A stretch of DNA of 64,000 nucleotides from an uncultured Flavobacteriales bacterium (GTDB lineage Bacteria > Bacteroidota > Bacteroidia > Flavobacteriales > Flavobacteriaceae), in contig CAJWBA010000002.1 in the NCBI GenBank assembly GCA_913020155.1, positions 62,001-126,000 on the forward strand, in the 5' to 3' direction. Position numbers and translations under genes: made by a program. The notes beneath the pieces are model-generated. The model was not told where the DNA came from, did not search any database, and saw nothing but the letters and a program-made list of their open reading frames with translations. This document shows positions 51,955 to 64,000 of the stretch, piece after piece (the stretch's first letter is position 1; the number at the start of each line of letters is the position of its first letter).

Positions 51955-52692
51955 TTATTTTATGATACCAGCACAACTAACTCTTGCGCCAGCTGCACCA
52001 GAGGGCTGAGAGGTTAGATCATCTTCGCCTTGATGTACGATTATTGCCTTTCCCATGAGATTTTTTTCTTTGTCATCACAACCAAGACACCATAGGTCTG
52101 TTTTAAATGTAATCATACCGTGACCGTTAGTATCAGCAATAAAGTTACCAATATCTCCACGGTGAAAACCGTTTGCGTCACCCCAGGCTCCATGAGCTTG
52201 AAACGTGGGATTCCAATGTCCTCCAGCTGATTTTCCATTATCAGCACTACAATCGGCTTTTTCGTGGATGTGTATAGCATGAATGCCCTTATCCAAACCA
52301 TTAATGTGTGCCTCTAAGGTTACATACCCTTCTTTTTCAGATAAATTTATGATTCCACTTGTGTCACTTCCGCTTTTTGCTTCAAGTGAAAATTGTAATT
52401 TCTTCTCTACTTTTTGATGAATTTGATGAGGTTTGTCATGCAAAACTTTACTTTTATGCTCTTCAAATTTCGCCTTTACTACCCCGGGAGTACCCTCAAT
52501 TACTTTAACCTCTTCTGTTGCATTCCCATCTTTATCCATAACAGTTGTTATGGTTGCTCGGAGGAGTGTATCATTAATTTTTTTCATTTCAACGGAAACT
52601 TCTGCATGTTTTTCTTTTTTGGGTTTTGTATCACATGAAATTAGAAAGACAACTAATGATAAATTTACGATAAGAATGAATAGTGTTTTCAT
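51955..52692 (-). CDS. sodC: Cu/Zn superoxide dismutase lipoprotein
   Basis: The 245-residue protein has a lipoprotein signal (LVVFLISCDTKPKKEK), a 70-residue linker and a SOD_Cu domain with HAIHIHEKADC, GGHWNP, FHRGDIGNF and IVHQGEDDL, plus GARVSCAGII. All metal ligands and the disulfide Cys pair appear to be present. It removes superoxide in the periplasm or at the cell surface. It is divergent from the DUF3089 gene. Confidence 0.95.
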   Translation of the reverse strand: MKTLFILIVNLSLVVFLISCDTKPKKEKHAEVSVEMKKINDTLLRATITTVMDKDGNATEEVKVIEGTPGVVKAKFEEHKSKVLHDKPHQIHQKVEKKLQFSLEAKSGSDTSGIINLSEKEGYVTLEAHINGLDKGIHAIHIHEKADCSADNGKSAGGHWNPTFQAHGAWGDANGFHRGDIGNFIADTNGHGMITFKTDLWCLGCDDKEKNLMGKAIIVHQGEDDLTSQPSGAAGARVSCAGIIK

Positions 52693-57842: not shown

Positions 57843-58460
57843 ATGAAAAAAATAAGTTTAACTTTTTCAATTACTTTTATTCTATTCACATTTATTTCTG
57901 GTTGTTCCTTGGATAAAGGTATTTCTTTGGATGAATTGATAATTGAAACAGTGGATAATAAATCTATTCATTATTTAGATGGAAAACCATATTCTGGTAT
58001 GGTTTATAAATTTGCTGAGGACGGTGAGAGCCTATTGATGGAATTTAATCTTCTTGAAGGACTAATTCATGAAGGGTATTCAGAATACAACCTTAATGGA
58101 TCTTTGGTTCATAGTATGTTTTATCAAAATGGAGTTCTTAACGGTCTGGAGGAGAAGTACTATGATAATGGACAGCTTTATGAATCAGTTAATTACATTA
58201 ACGGAAATTTTCAAGGGAAAAGGATGGTTTATTGGAGCAATGGTATTTTAAAAGAACAAAATTATTTTTCAAAAGGAATTTTAGGTGGCGAAAATTTATT
58301 TTATTTTTCCAATGGTAAATTACGAAAGAGATTCAAGTTTGATTTACAGGGAAGAAAAGACGGTGTCTGGGAAGACTTTTTCTCCAGTGGAGCACTTAAA
58401 CAGCAAGTTGTGTATAAAAACGGAAAGATTTTAGAAACTACTGATTCAAACGAAAACTAG
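57843..58460 (+). CDS. MORN/YwqK-type repeat lipoprotein
   Basis: The 205-residue protein has a lipoprotein signal (ITFILFTFISGCSLDKG) and YwqK-like MORN-variant repeats: YSEYNLNGSLVHSMFYQNGVLNGLEEKYYDNGQLYESV, FQGKRMVYWSNGILKEQNYF and GVWEDFFSSGALKQQVVYKNG. Such repeats are in proteins often annotated as toxin-antitoxin YwqK antitoxins; that label is unsupported by a toxin gene. It is preceded by a 261-bp gap with no feature I can name. Confidence 0.8.
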   Translation: MKKISLTFSITFILFTFISGCSLDKGISLDELIIETVDNKSIHYLDGKPYSGMVYKFAEDGESLLMEFNLLEGLIHEGYSEYNLNGSLVHSMFYQNGVLNGLEEKYYDNGQLYESVNYINGNFQGKRMVYWSNGILKEQNYFSKGILGGENLFYFSNGKLRKRFKFDLQGRKDGVWEDFFSSGALKQQVVYKNGKILETTDSNEN

Positions 58461-58475
58461 GAAGCCACCCCAAGA

Positions 58476-61400
58476 TCAATTACACACTTTAGTTGTTATT
58501 ACTGTAAAACTTCCTTGACTAATTGATATTGAGTTATTTAAGTGGCAAAAAATAAATGTTTTCCCTTTTGGAACATAAACATCATAATCTCTACAATTAC
58601 ACCCTTTATAAGTAAAGACAACGCCATTACTTCCTCCTTCAATAGTAGATTCTGTACAAGGTGAACAGGTTAATGCTATCGTAACAGAAACAACATTGCT
58701 ATCCAATGCACCGTCATTTGCTTTGTAAGAAAAACTATCACCACCATTCATCACTCCACCTTGTACATAACTGAAAGTACCTCCGGGGTTAAGAGTAATT
58801 GTTCCAAAACTAGCAGATGAGACAAGTGTTGCTGATAATACATCACCATCAGTGTCAGTATCATTCAGTAATACGTTGTTTGTTCCATCTGACAATAAGG
58901 AGATTGTTGATCCTAAACCAACAATTATACTATCTGGATAAGCAATAGGAGCGTCATTTGTATTTGATACTGAAATAGTCACCGTGGTAGGTAAACCGTA
59001 ACCTTTTAAATCAAAAGGTATGTAGGTAAAACTGTCTGTGAAGTTTTCTGTATCATCATGGGTATAAACAAATGAACCGTCTGAGTTTAATAGAAGAGTA
59101 CCAAAAGCAGGACTTGTAGCAATAGCAGCTGTTAAATTTGCTGCATCTCCAGCATCTGTGTCTGTATCATTAGATAAAACACTGGTTGATGCATTTGTTG
59201 TTACAGTCGCAGTACCTCCCTCAAACACTTGAATAGTTTCTGTTACCCCAACAGGTAAATTATTAATATATATTGTTACTGTTGTTGTATTTCCAATACT
59301 AAATCTATCTCGGGGTGTATAGGTAAAACTATCTGTTATAGTTGCAGTTCCATCATGTGTGTAAGTAAAGTTTCCATTGCTTGAGAATGATGTTAATGTT
59401 CCATTAATTGGGTCTGTAACTTTGACTGCAGTCATGGAATCACTCTCAGGATCAGTATCATTATTTAATACTGAAAATATTCCATCATTAAGTTGACTTG
59501 TGGTTCCTCCATTTACAACACTAATAATATCAGATGCTCCTGTAGGTGGATCATTTACTTGAACTACACTAACATTAAATATATCATCAATAGTACAAGA
59601 AGCAGTTCCATCGTCTACTGATAAGACAATAAAAGTACTTCCGTTTTGATTAAGTAAAAAATCTATAATTAAAGCTGTTGAAGTAATACTTGTTGCAATC
59701 AAGCTTGGATCCCCTGGTGTAGCGGTGTAGGTTAGAACATCTGCTACATCAACATCTGAAAATATATTAGCCAGTGGAATGTATCTATCAGGATCATCCT
59801 CAGTTACTGAAATATCTGGTAATGCATTATCGAGTGTAGGGCAATCATTAACAGGTGTTATTGTTATGCTTATGGGTTGGTATATTTTACATGTTAAGTC
59901 GTCGATGGTTATTGTACCGGTAGAGCTTCCATTTTGATTAGGGATGCTTGTGTAACTCAAACGTCCAGAACCATCTAGTGTTATAGAAACAATATCGCTA
60001 TTGGTATAGGACACCGTAATTGTGTGTGAGATGTGATCTGGATCTGTAATGTAATTTTGTATTGGAGTTGCCCAATTGAATGCGGTAAACTCCTCATTCC
60101 TTGTAACTGTATTAATTTGAGTTGCAAATGTAGCATCATTCCAAACAGGGCAATCATTCACTGGATTTATTGTTATGCTTACTGTAACTGTATTCCCATC
60201 ATCAATTTCATCATTCGCTTTATATTGAAAGGAATCTGTTGTAGTTTCCGACCCGTTATGAACATACTGAAACGTACCTGAAGAAAGTAATGTTAAGCTA
60301 CCATTTACAGGAGGTGTTACAAGTATTGCTTTTAAGGTTTCGCCTTCTGGGTCTGTGTCATTATCTAATAAGCTTGAGAATCTACTTGTAGTGGTTGTGA
60401 CTGTGCCTCCCTCATCTACAATAAGTGAATTACCGGTTGAGACAGGCACATCATTTACATCTGCTACATTAACAATAAAAACATCTTGAGTGGTATTACA
60501 ACCCTGCGTGTCATCTACAAATATGGTTATTGTGGTTGTTCCATTTTGCTCAGGGATATAATCGATTGTTAAAGATGCCGATGACAGAGTTACAGTAGCT
60601 AGACTTGTATCGTCATTTATAAATGAATATGATAAAGGATCATTTTCAGCATCAGTGAAATACGAGTTTAAATTTCTAACAGTGTCTGCAGCATCTTCAA
60701 GTACATTAATATCAGGAATAGGTGGACTAGTAACTGATGGGCAGTCATTAACTGGAATTATATTAATTGTAACAAGTACATCTGTGGTGGTGAAAGTATC
60801 AGTGAGTCGATATGTAAAACTATCAGTTGTTGTTTCACTGGCATCGTGGGTATAAATAAAAGTTCCACTAGATTGTAAAGTAAATCCACCCCCTAAGTGC
60901 CACATGGGATCGGTTAACTTAGTTACTGTTAAATTATCTCCCTCAGTATCTGTGTCATTAGCGATTACAGAATTACCAGCTGTAGTGGTCGTAACTGAGC
61001 TTCCTTCAAAAACGTTGATAGTGTCAGCAACACCAACTGGAGTGTCGTTTTCAGCTACTACAGTAATTACAAAGCTAGAACTGACTAAAGATGAGCATTC
61101 GATTGTATTATCTGTTGCATACAATATTATTGTACTACTACCTGTCATATCATCAACGTAATCGATTGTTAAAGTGGTAGCTGAGGATTTTGTTGCAGAG
61201 AGTAACCCTAAATTTGTACTGCTTACGGTTAATGTAATTGCATCATTTTCTTCATCGGAAAACACAGAACTAATATCAATATTATCGTCCGGATCATCTT
61301 CAATTGCGCTGAAGTCATTGATTGGTATATTTACGATTGGACAATCGTTGGTATGGAAAATTTGAATAGTGACCGTTGTTGTATTCCCAAAACCCTGTGT

Positions 61401-64000
61401 ATCAAAAGGACGATAAAGAAACGAATCGTTAGTGGTAATATCTCCTGGATTTTGTGTTCCATCATGAGTGTATGAAAATGTTCCATTATTTAATAAAGTT
61501 AAGGAACCTTTGGAAACAGATGGAGCAATGGCACCAAAACCATTTCCTATTGTAAGATTACCTCCATCTACATCAGTATCGTTAAAGAGGACAGAGGTAG
61601 CTAAAGCCGTTGTTGTTGTTACTGTACCTCCTTCAGTAACTGTTACTGTATCTGAAACTCCAATAGGTAGGTCATTATCAGGATTTACAGTTACAAGAAA
61701 TTCGTGAGGAACAAGTGACCCGCATCCAGAATCATTTGCAAAAATTGTAATTGTTGCGGTTCCTGTTGCATCAGATGCATAATCTAGTGTTAAAGTAGTT
61801 GTATTGATACTTGCAGTTACCAATGCAGCATTTGTATTCGTTACTGTATAGGTTAATACATTACTCTCAGGGTCATTAAATACATTGGTAAATGGAATAA
61901 CGGAATCTGAGGCGTCCTCTGTAACCGACACATTGGAAAGAGGGTTTTGAACGATCGGGCATTCTTCAACAGGGGTAATGTTTATGGTTACAGAAACTGT
62001 GTTTCCAAAAACGGAACCATCATATGCTCTATACCAAAAGGTGTCTGTTGTCGTTTCTGTATCGTCATGGGTGTATGTAAATGATCCAGTACCGCTGGGT
62101 GCTAGATTTAAAGTACCATTTAATGTAGTAGAAACAATCCTAGTGGTTATAGTGTCTCCATCAGGATCACTATCATTCGATAATACAGATGTAGCCCCTC
62201 CAGTGGTTGTGGTTGCTGTTCCTCCCTCAGCAACTAGAATAGAATCTGCAACAGTTAATGGTGGATTGGAAGATGATGTGAAAGATCCTACAAAAACACC
62301 TCTCCCGTATGAGGCAGCTAAAACACGATTATCTAAAGCTGAAACGCCTCTATAATCTAAATCGCGCACAGCAACATCCTGCATTCCTTCGTATGCGGGA
62401 GTCCAATTGGGATTAGCTGCACTAAAATTTGCTGTTCTCCAGACTCCTAAATCTGTTCCTACAATAACCTCATCATCTTCAAATGGATTATTTAGTATGG
62501 TCAAAACGGGTATATCAGGTAAATCACCTTCCTTGTTTGATGATAGCCCACCTGCAAAGCCGTCATTAGTGTATCTTATGTTACTATTATTAGCTGCATT
62601 TAAACCGTAGTTATAATATGTTAAATAAATTTCATTTTCATTATCCCCAAACTGAATATCTGAGACACTTCCTGATTGGCTATAAACTGGGGTTATTACA
62701 TGTGAACCAAGATTTTGAGCATTAGTTATTTTTTTTACTTCACCACTTTTCAAGCCCACAAAAAGAGTCGTTCGATCAGTTGTAAAAGGAGAAACCTCTA
62801 AAGCAGTAACAAAATCAGCACCAGTAGATACCGATGGGATAAGAAAAGTGGCTGGAGTACCACCTCTTTCGAGGCCAGTTATAACTCTGATTGAATTCGC
62901 ACCGAATCGATCTCCAGCATTTGAAAAATATACATCTTGATTAGAATCTAATGCTGCAGGATTTATAAAACTCCCTTCATTACTGGGAATTGATAAGTCC
63001 GAGGTTAAATTATCGATTCCACTATTATCTGCTCCCCGTTCCCATCCTAAATCAATAGTTATATTTCCTAATGCATCAAATTCACCTCTCAGGATTGTAT
63101 TATTTTTGACGTAATTTGAAATGTAATAATCTCCACCTACTTGATCAAAGAAAGTATCACCTCCGTCTCCACCTTGAATTTCAGTACCATCAGTCTTATT
63201 TTGATTTGAGTTTATTAGAGAATAAGTTCCATTATCTTGAGTTCCTCCAATAATCCAATCTGCTCCTGCAAAATCAGGTGGAGATTGGGCAACAGCATAA
63301 AACTGGGTCGTTATCATGTTTTTTTCCATCTCAGTAAAAGTACTTGTGTCGGATGCTGTTGATAAACTCGAGGAGTAGTATACACCTCCATCATTCACTA
63401 CAATAGCTTCATTAGAATTACCTGGTCCTGGTTTAAAATACAATCCATGTTGGTCAGCATGCACAATTGAGCAATTTAAATTGAAAAGGTTGTTGTTATT
63501 GGACCATTTTGTAATTTGAGACCAATCAGAACCACCATTTTGACTTCTAAACCAATCAATACCCCCCACATATAAAATTTCATCATTGAATGGATCAACT
63601 TCAATTTCGAGATCATAAAAAGATTGTCCTCTAGTGTAATCAAAATTTGGAATTCCTGTATCAACATCCGCTGGGGGTACAATGTATGAAAAGCTTGTAA
63701 AATTATCTGTAGTTTTATAGATAATCGGGATTTGTGGATATGAAGCTGTTGAGCTACTTGTATTAGATGTATTAATAATTATATAATGAGTGTCTGTATT
63801 TTGATGACTAGAAGCAATTTCTGTTCTAAGTCTGTCATTGCGCGTAGTTGTTGGAAACGCAGGAAATGTTGGGTTTGATTTAGTAAAAGTTATACCATCG
63901 TCACTATACCAAAACCTACCACCGCGTCCAAATGAAGTTCCTAGAGCACTTTTCTGAGTACTTAACCATATTCTATTGGAAACTTCTTGAACCTCAATAT
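58476..64000 (-). CDS. Giant secreted modular adhesin-like protein, N-terminus outside the window
   Basis: The frame is open to the right edge, so the track's start (GTG at 63569) is internal: 143 more codons bring the visible part to 1840 residues. The first roughly 580 residues form BNR/VPS10-like repeats (FWYSDDGITFTKS, WFRSQNGGSDWSQI). Then 12 modules of 80-105 residues follow in the order A B A B A B A B B A A A. A modules have EGGTATTTT, LSNDSDPDGDT and FTYTHDDTETTTDSF; B modules open with NDCP and carry a second Cys. NDTDxDGD loops probably bind calcium. A Cys-rich tail of about 65 residues ends VCN. Adhesion or surface display is inferred; no signal peptide is in view. Confidence 0.85.
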   Translation of the reverse strand, partial: IEVQEVSNRIWLSTQKSALGTSFGRGGRFWYSDDGITFTKSNPTFPAFPTTTRNDRLRTEIASSHQNTDTHYIIINTSNTSSSTASYPQIPIIYKTTDNFTSFSYIVPPADVDTGIPNFDYTRGQSFYDLEIEVDPFNDEILYVGGIDWFRSQNGGSDWSQITKWSNNNNLFNLNCSIVHADQHGLYFKPGPGNSNEAIVVNDGGVYYSSSLSTASDTSTFTEMEKNMITTQFYAVAQSPPDFAGADWIIGGTQDNGTYSLINSNQNKTDGTEIQGGDGGDTFFDQVGGDYYISNYVKNNTILRGEFDALGNITIDLGWERGADNSGIDNLTSDLSIPSNEGSFINPAALDSNQDVYFSNAGDRFGANSIRVITGLERGGTPATFLIPSVSTGADFVTALEVSPFTTDRTTLFVGLKSGEVKKITNAQNLGSHVITPVYSQSGSVSDIQFGDNENEIYLTYYNYGLNAANNSNIRYTNDGFAGGLSSNKEGDLPDIPVLTILNNPFEDDEVIVGTDLGVWRTANFSAANPNWTPAYEGMQDVAVRDLDYRGVSALDNRVLAASYGRGVFVGSFTSSSNPPLTVADSILVAEGGTATTTTGGATSVLSNDSDPDGDTITTRIVSTTLNGTLNLAPSGTGSFTYTHDDTETTTDTFWYRAYDGSVFGNTVSVTINITPVEECPIVQNPLSNVSVTEDASDSVIPFTNVFNDPESNVLTYTVTNTNAALVTASINTTTLTLDYASDATGTATITIFANDSGCGSLVPHEFLVTVNPDNDLPIGVSDTVTVTEGGTVTTTTALATSVLFNDTDVDGGNLTIGNGFGAIAPSVSKGSLTLLNNGTFSYTHDGTQNPGDITTNDSFLYRPFDTQGFGNTTTVTIQIFHTNDCPIVNIPINDFSAIEDDPDDNIDISSVFSDEENDAITLTVSSTNLGLLSATKSSATTLTIDYVDDMTGSSTIILYATDNTIECSSLVSSSFVITVVAENDTPVGVADTINVFEGSSVTTTTAGNSVIANDTDTEGDNLTVTKLTDPMWHLGGGFTLQSSGTFIYTHDASETTTDSFTYRLTDTFTTTDVLVTINIIPVNDCPSVTSPPIPDINVLEDAADTVRNLNSYFTDAENDPLSYSFINDDTSLATVTLSSASLTIDYIPEQNGTTTITIFVDDTQGCNTTQDVFIVNVADVNDVPVSTGNSLIVDEGGTVTTTTSRFSSLLDNDTDPEGETLKAILVTPPVNGSLTLLSSGTFQYVHNGSETTTDSFQYKANDEIDDGNTVTVSITINPVNDCPVWNDATFATQINTVTRNEEFTAFNWATPIQNYITDPDHISHTITVSYTNSDIVSITLDGSGRLSYTSIPNQNGSSTGTITIDDLTCKIYQPISITITPVNDCPTLDNALPDISVTEDDPDRYIPLANIFSDVDVADVLTYTATPGDPSLIATSITSTALIIDFLLNQNGSTFIVLSVDDGTASCTIDDIFNVSVVQVNDPPTGASDIISVVNGGTTSQLNDGIFSVLNNDTDPESDSMTAVKVTDPINGTLTSFSSNGNFTYTHDGTATITDSFTYTPRDRFSIGNTTTVTIYINNLPVGVTETIQVFEGGTATVTTNASTSVLSNDTDTDAGDAANLTAAIATSPAFGTLLLNSDGSFVYTHDDTENFTDSFTYIPFDLKGYGLPTTVTISVSNTNDAPIAYPDSIIVGLGSTISLLSDGTNNVLLNDTDTDGDVLSATLVSSASFGTITLNPGGTFSYVQGGVMNGGDSFSYKANDGALDSNVVSVTIALTCSPCTESTIEGGSNGVVFTYKGCNCRDYDVYVPKGKTFIFCHLNNSISISQGSFTVITTKVCN

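Follow-up and report, generated by a model that had tools for sequence, protein, structure and literature searches.

INTRODUCTION

Bacterial arrays of cadherin-like and Big_9 domains (PF17803, PF17963, PF17892, and NF012211) form giant extracellular proteins in which beads of about 98 residues are joined at N-D-x-P. Stalks of tandem beta-sandwiches reinforced against unfolding by additional bonds are also found in Gram-positive pilins and adhesins, which carry isopeptide or ester bonds, and in the calcium-clamped extenders of MpAFP and MhLap (PMC8382745, PMC5380327). For such extender domains of bacterial adhesins, parallel terminal strands are a named source of high mechanical strength (PMC5380327). 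In animals, EC1 of the tip-link and intermicrovillar cadherins PCDH15 and CDHR5 contains a disulfide that links the N-terminal strand A to the opposite side of its own repeat and keeps the strand tucked; the partner lies on strand F, at a distance of 68 residues in CDHR5 (PMC8691648).

Here, we analyzed a window of 64,000 nucleotides from an uncultured flavobacterium. The host genome groups with Candidatus Arcticimaribacter (NS5 marine Flavobacteriaceae), which includes the cultured A. forsetii AHE01FL. This genus is one of four in the NS5 marine group, for which free-living, nongliding cells have been described (PMC9122927). The window encodes most of a giant protein, P0001, whose stalk modifies a bacterial stalk design that is already known. 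It shares module families (with highly significant scores), bead length, and junctions with the bacterial cadherin-like arrays. Unlike the giants examined elsewhere, which are homogeneous arrays of A or B modules, P0001 alternates two module types in a fixed order, and only one of the two carries cysteines. We consider it moderately probable that P0001 is a surface stalk protein in which each B module is stapled by its own cysteine pair, acting as a mechanical lock. A literature search for cysteine-coded cadherin-like arrays in Bacteroidota found none.

RESULTS

Organization of the giant gene. The gene lies on the minus strand and crosses the window edge to approximately position 64946, so that the window covers the C-terminal 1840 residues of the protein. 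The contig continues past the window, and the complete gene, which the first-pass annotation had advised obtaining, could be recovered as an open reading frame of 2156 amino acids (L002:5477-11947:-). P0001 begins with a hydrophobic, signal-peptide-like N terminus and consists of an N-terminal head of approximately 890 residues, twelve modules of 97 to 109 residues each, and a 63-residue C-terminal domain with six cysteines. The features within the window are as follows (residue numbers of P0001 in brackets).

58476..64000, minus strand: coding sequence of the giant protein in the window (residues 317-2156 and stop)
62274..63998, minus strand: in-window part of the head (317-891), predicted GH74-like tandem beta-propeller
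61968..62273, minus strand: module A1 (892-993), no Cys
61677..61967, minus strand: module B1 (994-1090), Cys 996 and 1075 (codons 61959-61961 and 61722-61724); domain match
61350..61676, minus strand: module A2 (1091-1199), no Cys
61050..61349, minus strand: module B2 (1200-1299), Cys 1202 and 1284 (codons 61341-61343 and 61095-61097)
60750..61049, minus strand: module A3 (1300-1399), no Cys
60456..60749, minus strand: module B3 (1400-1497), Cys 1402 and 1483 (codons 60741-60743 and 60498-60500); fold model
60159..60455, minus strand: module A4 (1498-1596), no Cys; fold model
59850..60158, minus strand: module B4 (1597-1699), divergent B subtype, Cys 1599 and 1686 (codons 60150-60152 and 59889-59891); fold model
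59556..59849, minus strand: module B5 (1700-1797), Cys 1702 and 1784 (codons 59841-59843 and 59595-59597); fold model
59262..59555, minus strand: module A5 (1798-1895), no Cys
58959..59261, minus strand: module A6 (1896-1996), no Cys
58668..58958, minus strand: module A7 (1997-2093), no Cys
58479..58667, minus strand: six-Cys C-terminal domain (2094-2156), with CxPC, CxC, FCHL, and a terminal C

On the plus strand at 57843-58460, a gene for a small lipoprotein that has MORN-like repeats is convergent with the giant gene and ends 15 bases from its stop codon. Comparable small lipoproteins adjoin several orthologues of the giant gene.

Two cysteines per B module. The module order is that of the first-pass annotation, A1-B1-A2-B2-A3-B3-A4-B4-B5-A5-A6-A7. 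The regular alternation of two types described there holds in the head-proximal part; the array ends in B-A-A-A followed by the six-Cys tail and is therefore no simple alternation. Each of the five B modules contains exactly two cysteines and the A modules contain none, as had been noticed. The first cysteine stands at module position three. It is preceded by the expected Asn-Asp in B2 to B5, which begin with NDCP, but not in B1, which begins with EECP. The spacing to the second cysteine is 79, 82, 81, 87, and 82 residues in B1 to B5, respectively, so that four modules fall within the proposed 75 to 85 and B4 lies above it. For ten stalk cysteines scattered at random over twelve modules, the chance of two landing in every B module and none in an A module is about 2e-6, by our own arithmetic from module lengths and with the fixed positions of the cysteines left out of the count. 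A bias toward even numbers of cysteines among the exported proteins in the window was uninformative. The head has a single cysteine in its approximately 890 residues. That each B module of an otherwise cysteine-poor protein has exactly two suggests that they pair within the module.

Predicted fold of the stalk modules. Both A and B modules match the same cadherin-like/Big_9 Pfam families in profile searches. P0001 scores 303 bits against PF17803 (cutoff, 25.1) and 262 bits against PF17963 (cutoff, 23.6), and the NCBIfam tandem-95 repeat NF012211 gives 249 against a cutoff of 90. Among PDB sequences, B-module profiles matched repeats of animal cadherins as well as domains of an endofucoidanase. 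An AlphaFold2 model of residues 1390-2156, computed with eleven orthologues, has a mean pLDDT of 85 and repeats a cadherin-like seven-strand pattern in each module; its pTM of 0.34 is too low to fix how neighboring modules are angled, so that the stiff stalk envisaged in the first-pass annotation would go beyond this model. Foldseek matched the stalk model to cadherin ectodomains, the GhpA base, and S-layer proteins. Acidic motifs in the array are candidate calcium sites at the module junctions, and the calcium binding that the first-pass annotation assigned to A modules is putative.

In the models of B3, B4, and B5, the first cysteine precedes the first short strand (strand A) by two residues, and the second stands 0 to 3 residues before strand G, at the F-G turn. 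In a seven-strand cadherin sandwich, the N terminus and the F-G turn lie at the same pole. This placement at one pole is a judgment of topology from strand positions and not of distance; it would fit a bond within the module. The first cysteine also sits where an A module meets a B module, which is in keeping with another reading, bonds between modules or chains that would give cross-linked bundles. We consider such bundles quite unlikely: each B module has exactly two cysteines at what is predicted to be the same pole, and B5, which comes directly after B4, retains the pair just as do the B modules that come after an A module. A disulfide within the B module is likely.

The predicted bond would resemble that of PCDH15 and CDHR5, whose strand-A type of disulfide fits the positions and conservation of the P0001 cysteines in sequence and model. 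The likeness concerns the way of working only, since those are animal proteins in which the bond is limited to EC1 and reaches strand F. In P0001, the predicted bond goes to the F-G turn, and every B module would have one.

Conservation across the genus. Relatives of the whole protein are present in most genomes of Candidatus Arcticimaribacter, and the full-length orthologues share the architecture of P0001. Arrays were annotated with an A profile and a B profile in which the cysteines had been masked to avoid selecting for them. Nine arrays, including a copy from the sister genus (L066), read A-B-A-B-A-B-A-B-B-A-A-A; three are one A-B pair shorter, and two of these three begin at contig ends. 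Exactly two cysteines were found in all B modules of the annotated arrays (57/57), and none in any A module (79/79). Such constancy of module number and order throughout a genus is an argument for the importance of length or arrangement. Two orthologues have broken frames, one between head and stalk with two in-frame stops (L004 in G008) and one inside the array (L067 in G013), through either gene decay or assembly error. No relatives were found in the viral contigs searched.

When distinct B modules of the genus and its sister genus were scanned with the masked profile, both cysteines were present in 72/72, and the pairs that had been predicted to be conserved in homologues were so without exception. 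The same scan found neither cysteine in 95/95 B-like modules sampled from other Bacteroidota, and no module on either side had one cysteine only; the loci compared came from searches with an unmasked alignment, so that sampling, if anything, was tilted toward cysteine-bearing modules. This both-or-neither pattern (72/72 versus 0/95) suggests that the pair behaves as one character. Because the pair arose in one clade, 72/72 represents strong conservation and not 72 independent events. In the collections searched, the variant occurs in a single marine genus and the sister genus only.

By sequence comparison, the stalk modules are old. B modules within one protein are mostly 23 to 44% identical, rising to approximately 65% in neighboring pairs, and B4 falls to 26% identity between species. 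In one orthologue (L009), the A1B1 and A2B2 units are 93 and 98% identical at the protein level, which reflects recent duplication or homogenization; the array can thus grow or homogenize by whole A-B units. This last case, together with the restriction to a single clade, suits a reading in which the cysteines are reduced or without special function and were simply kept by descent from one cysteine-bearing B ancestor. We judge this unlikely, since neither cysteine has been lost in 72 distinct modules despite divergence to 23 to 44% identity, both are among the very few conserved positions, and the rest of the stalk is free of cysteine.

Oxidizing machinery. The same reading gains from the complement of thiol oxidases. 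None of 19 genomes, those of the host and 18 congeners, gave a match to DsbB or VKOR, and no match to the DSBA or Thioredoxin_4 family was detected in any genus member searched; the control genomes were positive for all four families. Against it stand regular cysteine pairs on other surface proteins of the genus. Type IX secretion system (T9SS)-type proteins of these genomes contain extended series of thrombospondin-3-like repeats in which the cysteines are regularly paired, and surface proteins such as L135 and L134 have 51 to 65 cysteines, mostly in regular pairs. These thrombospondin-3-like pairs suggest that an oxidizing route exists: either another route forms disulfides in the genus or oxygenated seawater suffices. 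No literature on Dsb-less Flavobacteria was found. A Cu,Zn superoxide dismutase-like lipoprotein is also encoded in the window (51955-52692, minus strand); it has the two usual cysteines, which we take to form the disulfide normal for this enzyme, and an extra CLGC pair.

Comparison with other giants. The first-pass annotation regarded the cysteine-coded alternation as unusual for cadherin-like arrays. The related giants examined are indeed homogeneous, but the claim has to be softened in view of a 3555-residue open reading frame from the same family (L117 in G030), which mixes Cys-paired A-type cadherin-like modules with Cys-less ones. Its second cysteine is at the start of strand G, as in the B modules of P0001. 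However, its two cysteines are 8 residues apart on the F-G hairpin (ICDDGTPxLCDTA), whereas the partner in P0001 is N-terminal and approximately 80 residues off. With a different bond position, this arrangement means that the idea of a cysteine code is not wholly unprecedented. Other Bacteroidota (L111-L115) encode giants of up to 7500 amino acids with homogeneous, Cys-free B-like modules, and several of these reading frames have T9SS-like tails.

The head. The propeller head anticipated from the in-window sequence is borne out as a prediction. An AlphaFold2 model (pLDDT, 74.9; pTM, 0.69) was matched best by GH74 xyloglucanases in Foldseek, over its whole length (E value, 2e-20; TMq, approximately 0.5 to 0.55), with weak sequence support from a profile search against the PDB (xyloglucanases at 8e-10). 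The fold is thus predicted to be a GH74-like tandem seven-bladed double propeller. The head is, however, only about 14% identical to these enzymes, and an enzymatic role is putative. No Pfam family exceeded its cutoff for the P0001 head; some of its relatives have weak BNR and Sortilin-Vps10 matches. The head is probably the ligand-binding or enzymatic part of the protein. Relatives of the head outside the genus carry other tails, and three of them (L018-L020) end in type-A-like T9SS sorting domains. The stalk and six-Cys tail occupy the place of these tails in Arcticimaribacter.

The six-Cys tail. The 63-residue C-terminal domain was absent from the first-pass annotation and is added here. 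Among 150 relatives, it was found in Candidatus Arcticimaribacter and one sister genus only, and the whole genome collection contained 13 loci. No credible family was found for it in NCBIfam, Pfam, or PDB sequences, the best PDB match being ribosomal L33 (E value, 0.09). The sister genus lacks tail Cys 3 and Cys 5, and their joint loss had suggested that the two pair; this idea was dropped, as another genome has lost Cys 3 yet keeps Cys 5. P0001 contains neither a T9SS type A C-terminal domain (Por_Secre_tail, TIGR04183) nor any other NCBIfam sorting domain, and the TIGR04183 matches in the host genome fall in other genes. The T9SS translocon protein SprA is present in 19/19 genomes of the genus. 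We infer that the giant protein is secreted and displayed on the surface; SprA favors this reading, and the lack of a recognized T9SS C-terminal signal counts against it. Our guess for the tail is a role in sorting or anchoring.

DISCUSSION

We favor the reading in which every B module is closed by its own staple. The entrance cysteine (ND-C-P, before strand A) would bond the F-G-turn cysteine (before strand G) of the same module. When the stalk is pulled, force would enter at strand A and leave at strand G, and the staple would remove approximately 80 of approximately 98 residues from the force path, so that a B module could peel strand G only. The N-terminal strand of the B module would stay tucked in where the module adjoins the A module before it. 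B modules would then be nearly inextensible, and A modules would still be able to unfold. As stapled B and unstapled A modules would alternate over the two thirds of the stalk nearest the head, this part would stretch to a limited and graded extent; beyond it, three A modules without a lock would lie beside the six-Cys tail. The bond would differ in chemistry and fold family from those of the Gram-positive pilins and adhesins and of the calcium-clamped extenders, being a putative disulfide.

The mechanical role of the staple is an inference from this geometry. The staple could also exist in a stalk that is a mere spacer, with the cysteine pairs serving stability against proteases and heat in open seawater, and the free-living habit described for NS5 cells (PMC9122927) agrees with that. 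We hold this to be possible though not probable. The predicted position of the bond bypasses most of the force path, and only one of the two module types would have it, a restriction not expected from general stabilization. The stability reading shares the bond within the module with the mechanical lock and differs from it in the benefit only, and our estimates for the two overlap.

A bolder proposal, which we regard as rather doubtful, is that a disulfide code sets locked against stretchable beads and that a lineage without DsbA, DsbB, and VKOR uses an undescribed oxidizing route, perhaps coupled to the T9SS.

The six-Cys tail sits where the head relatives outside the genus carry T9SS sorting domains, making it a candidate for a new sorting or anchoring domain. 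If the staple within the B module is real, the stalk of Candidatus Arcticimaribacter would be a natural block design, with lockable and unlockable beads in one stalk and intact homologues to compare. The sharper question would then be how disulfides are made on the surface of bacteria with no detectable DsbA, DsbB, or VKOR.
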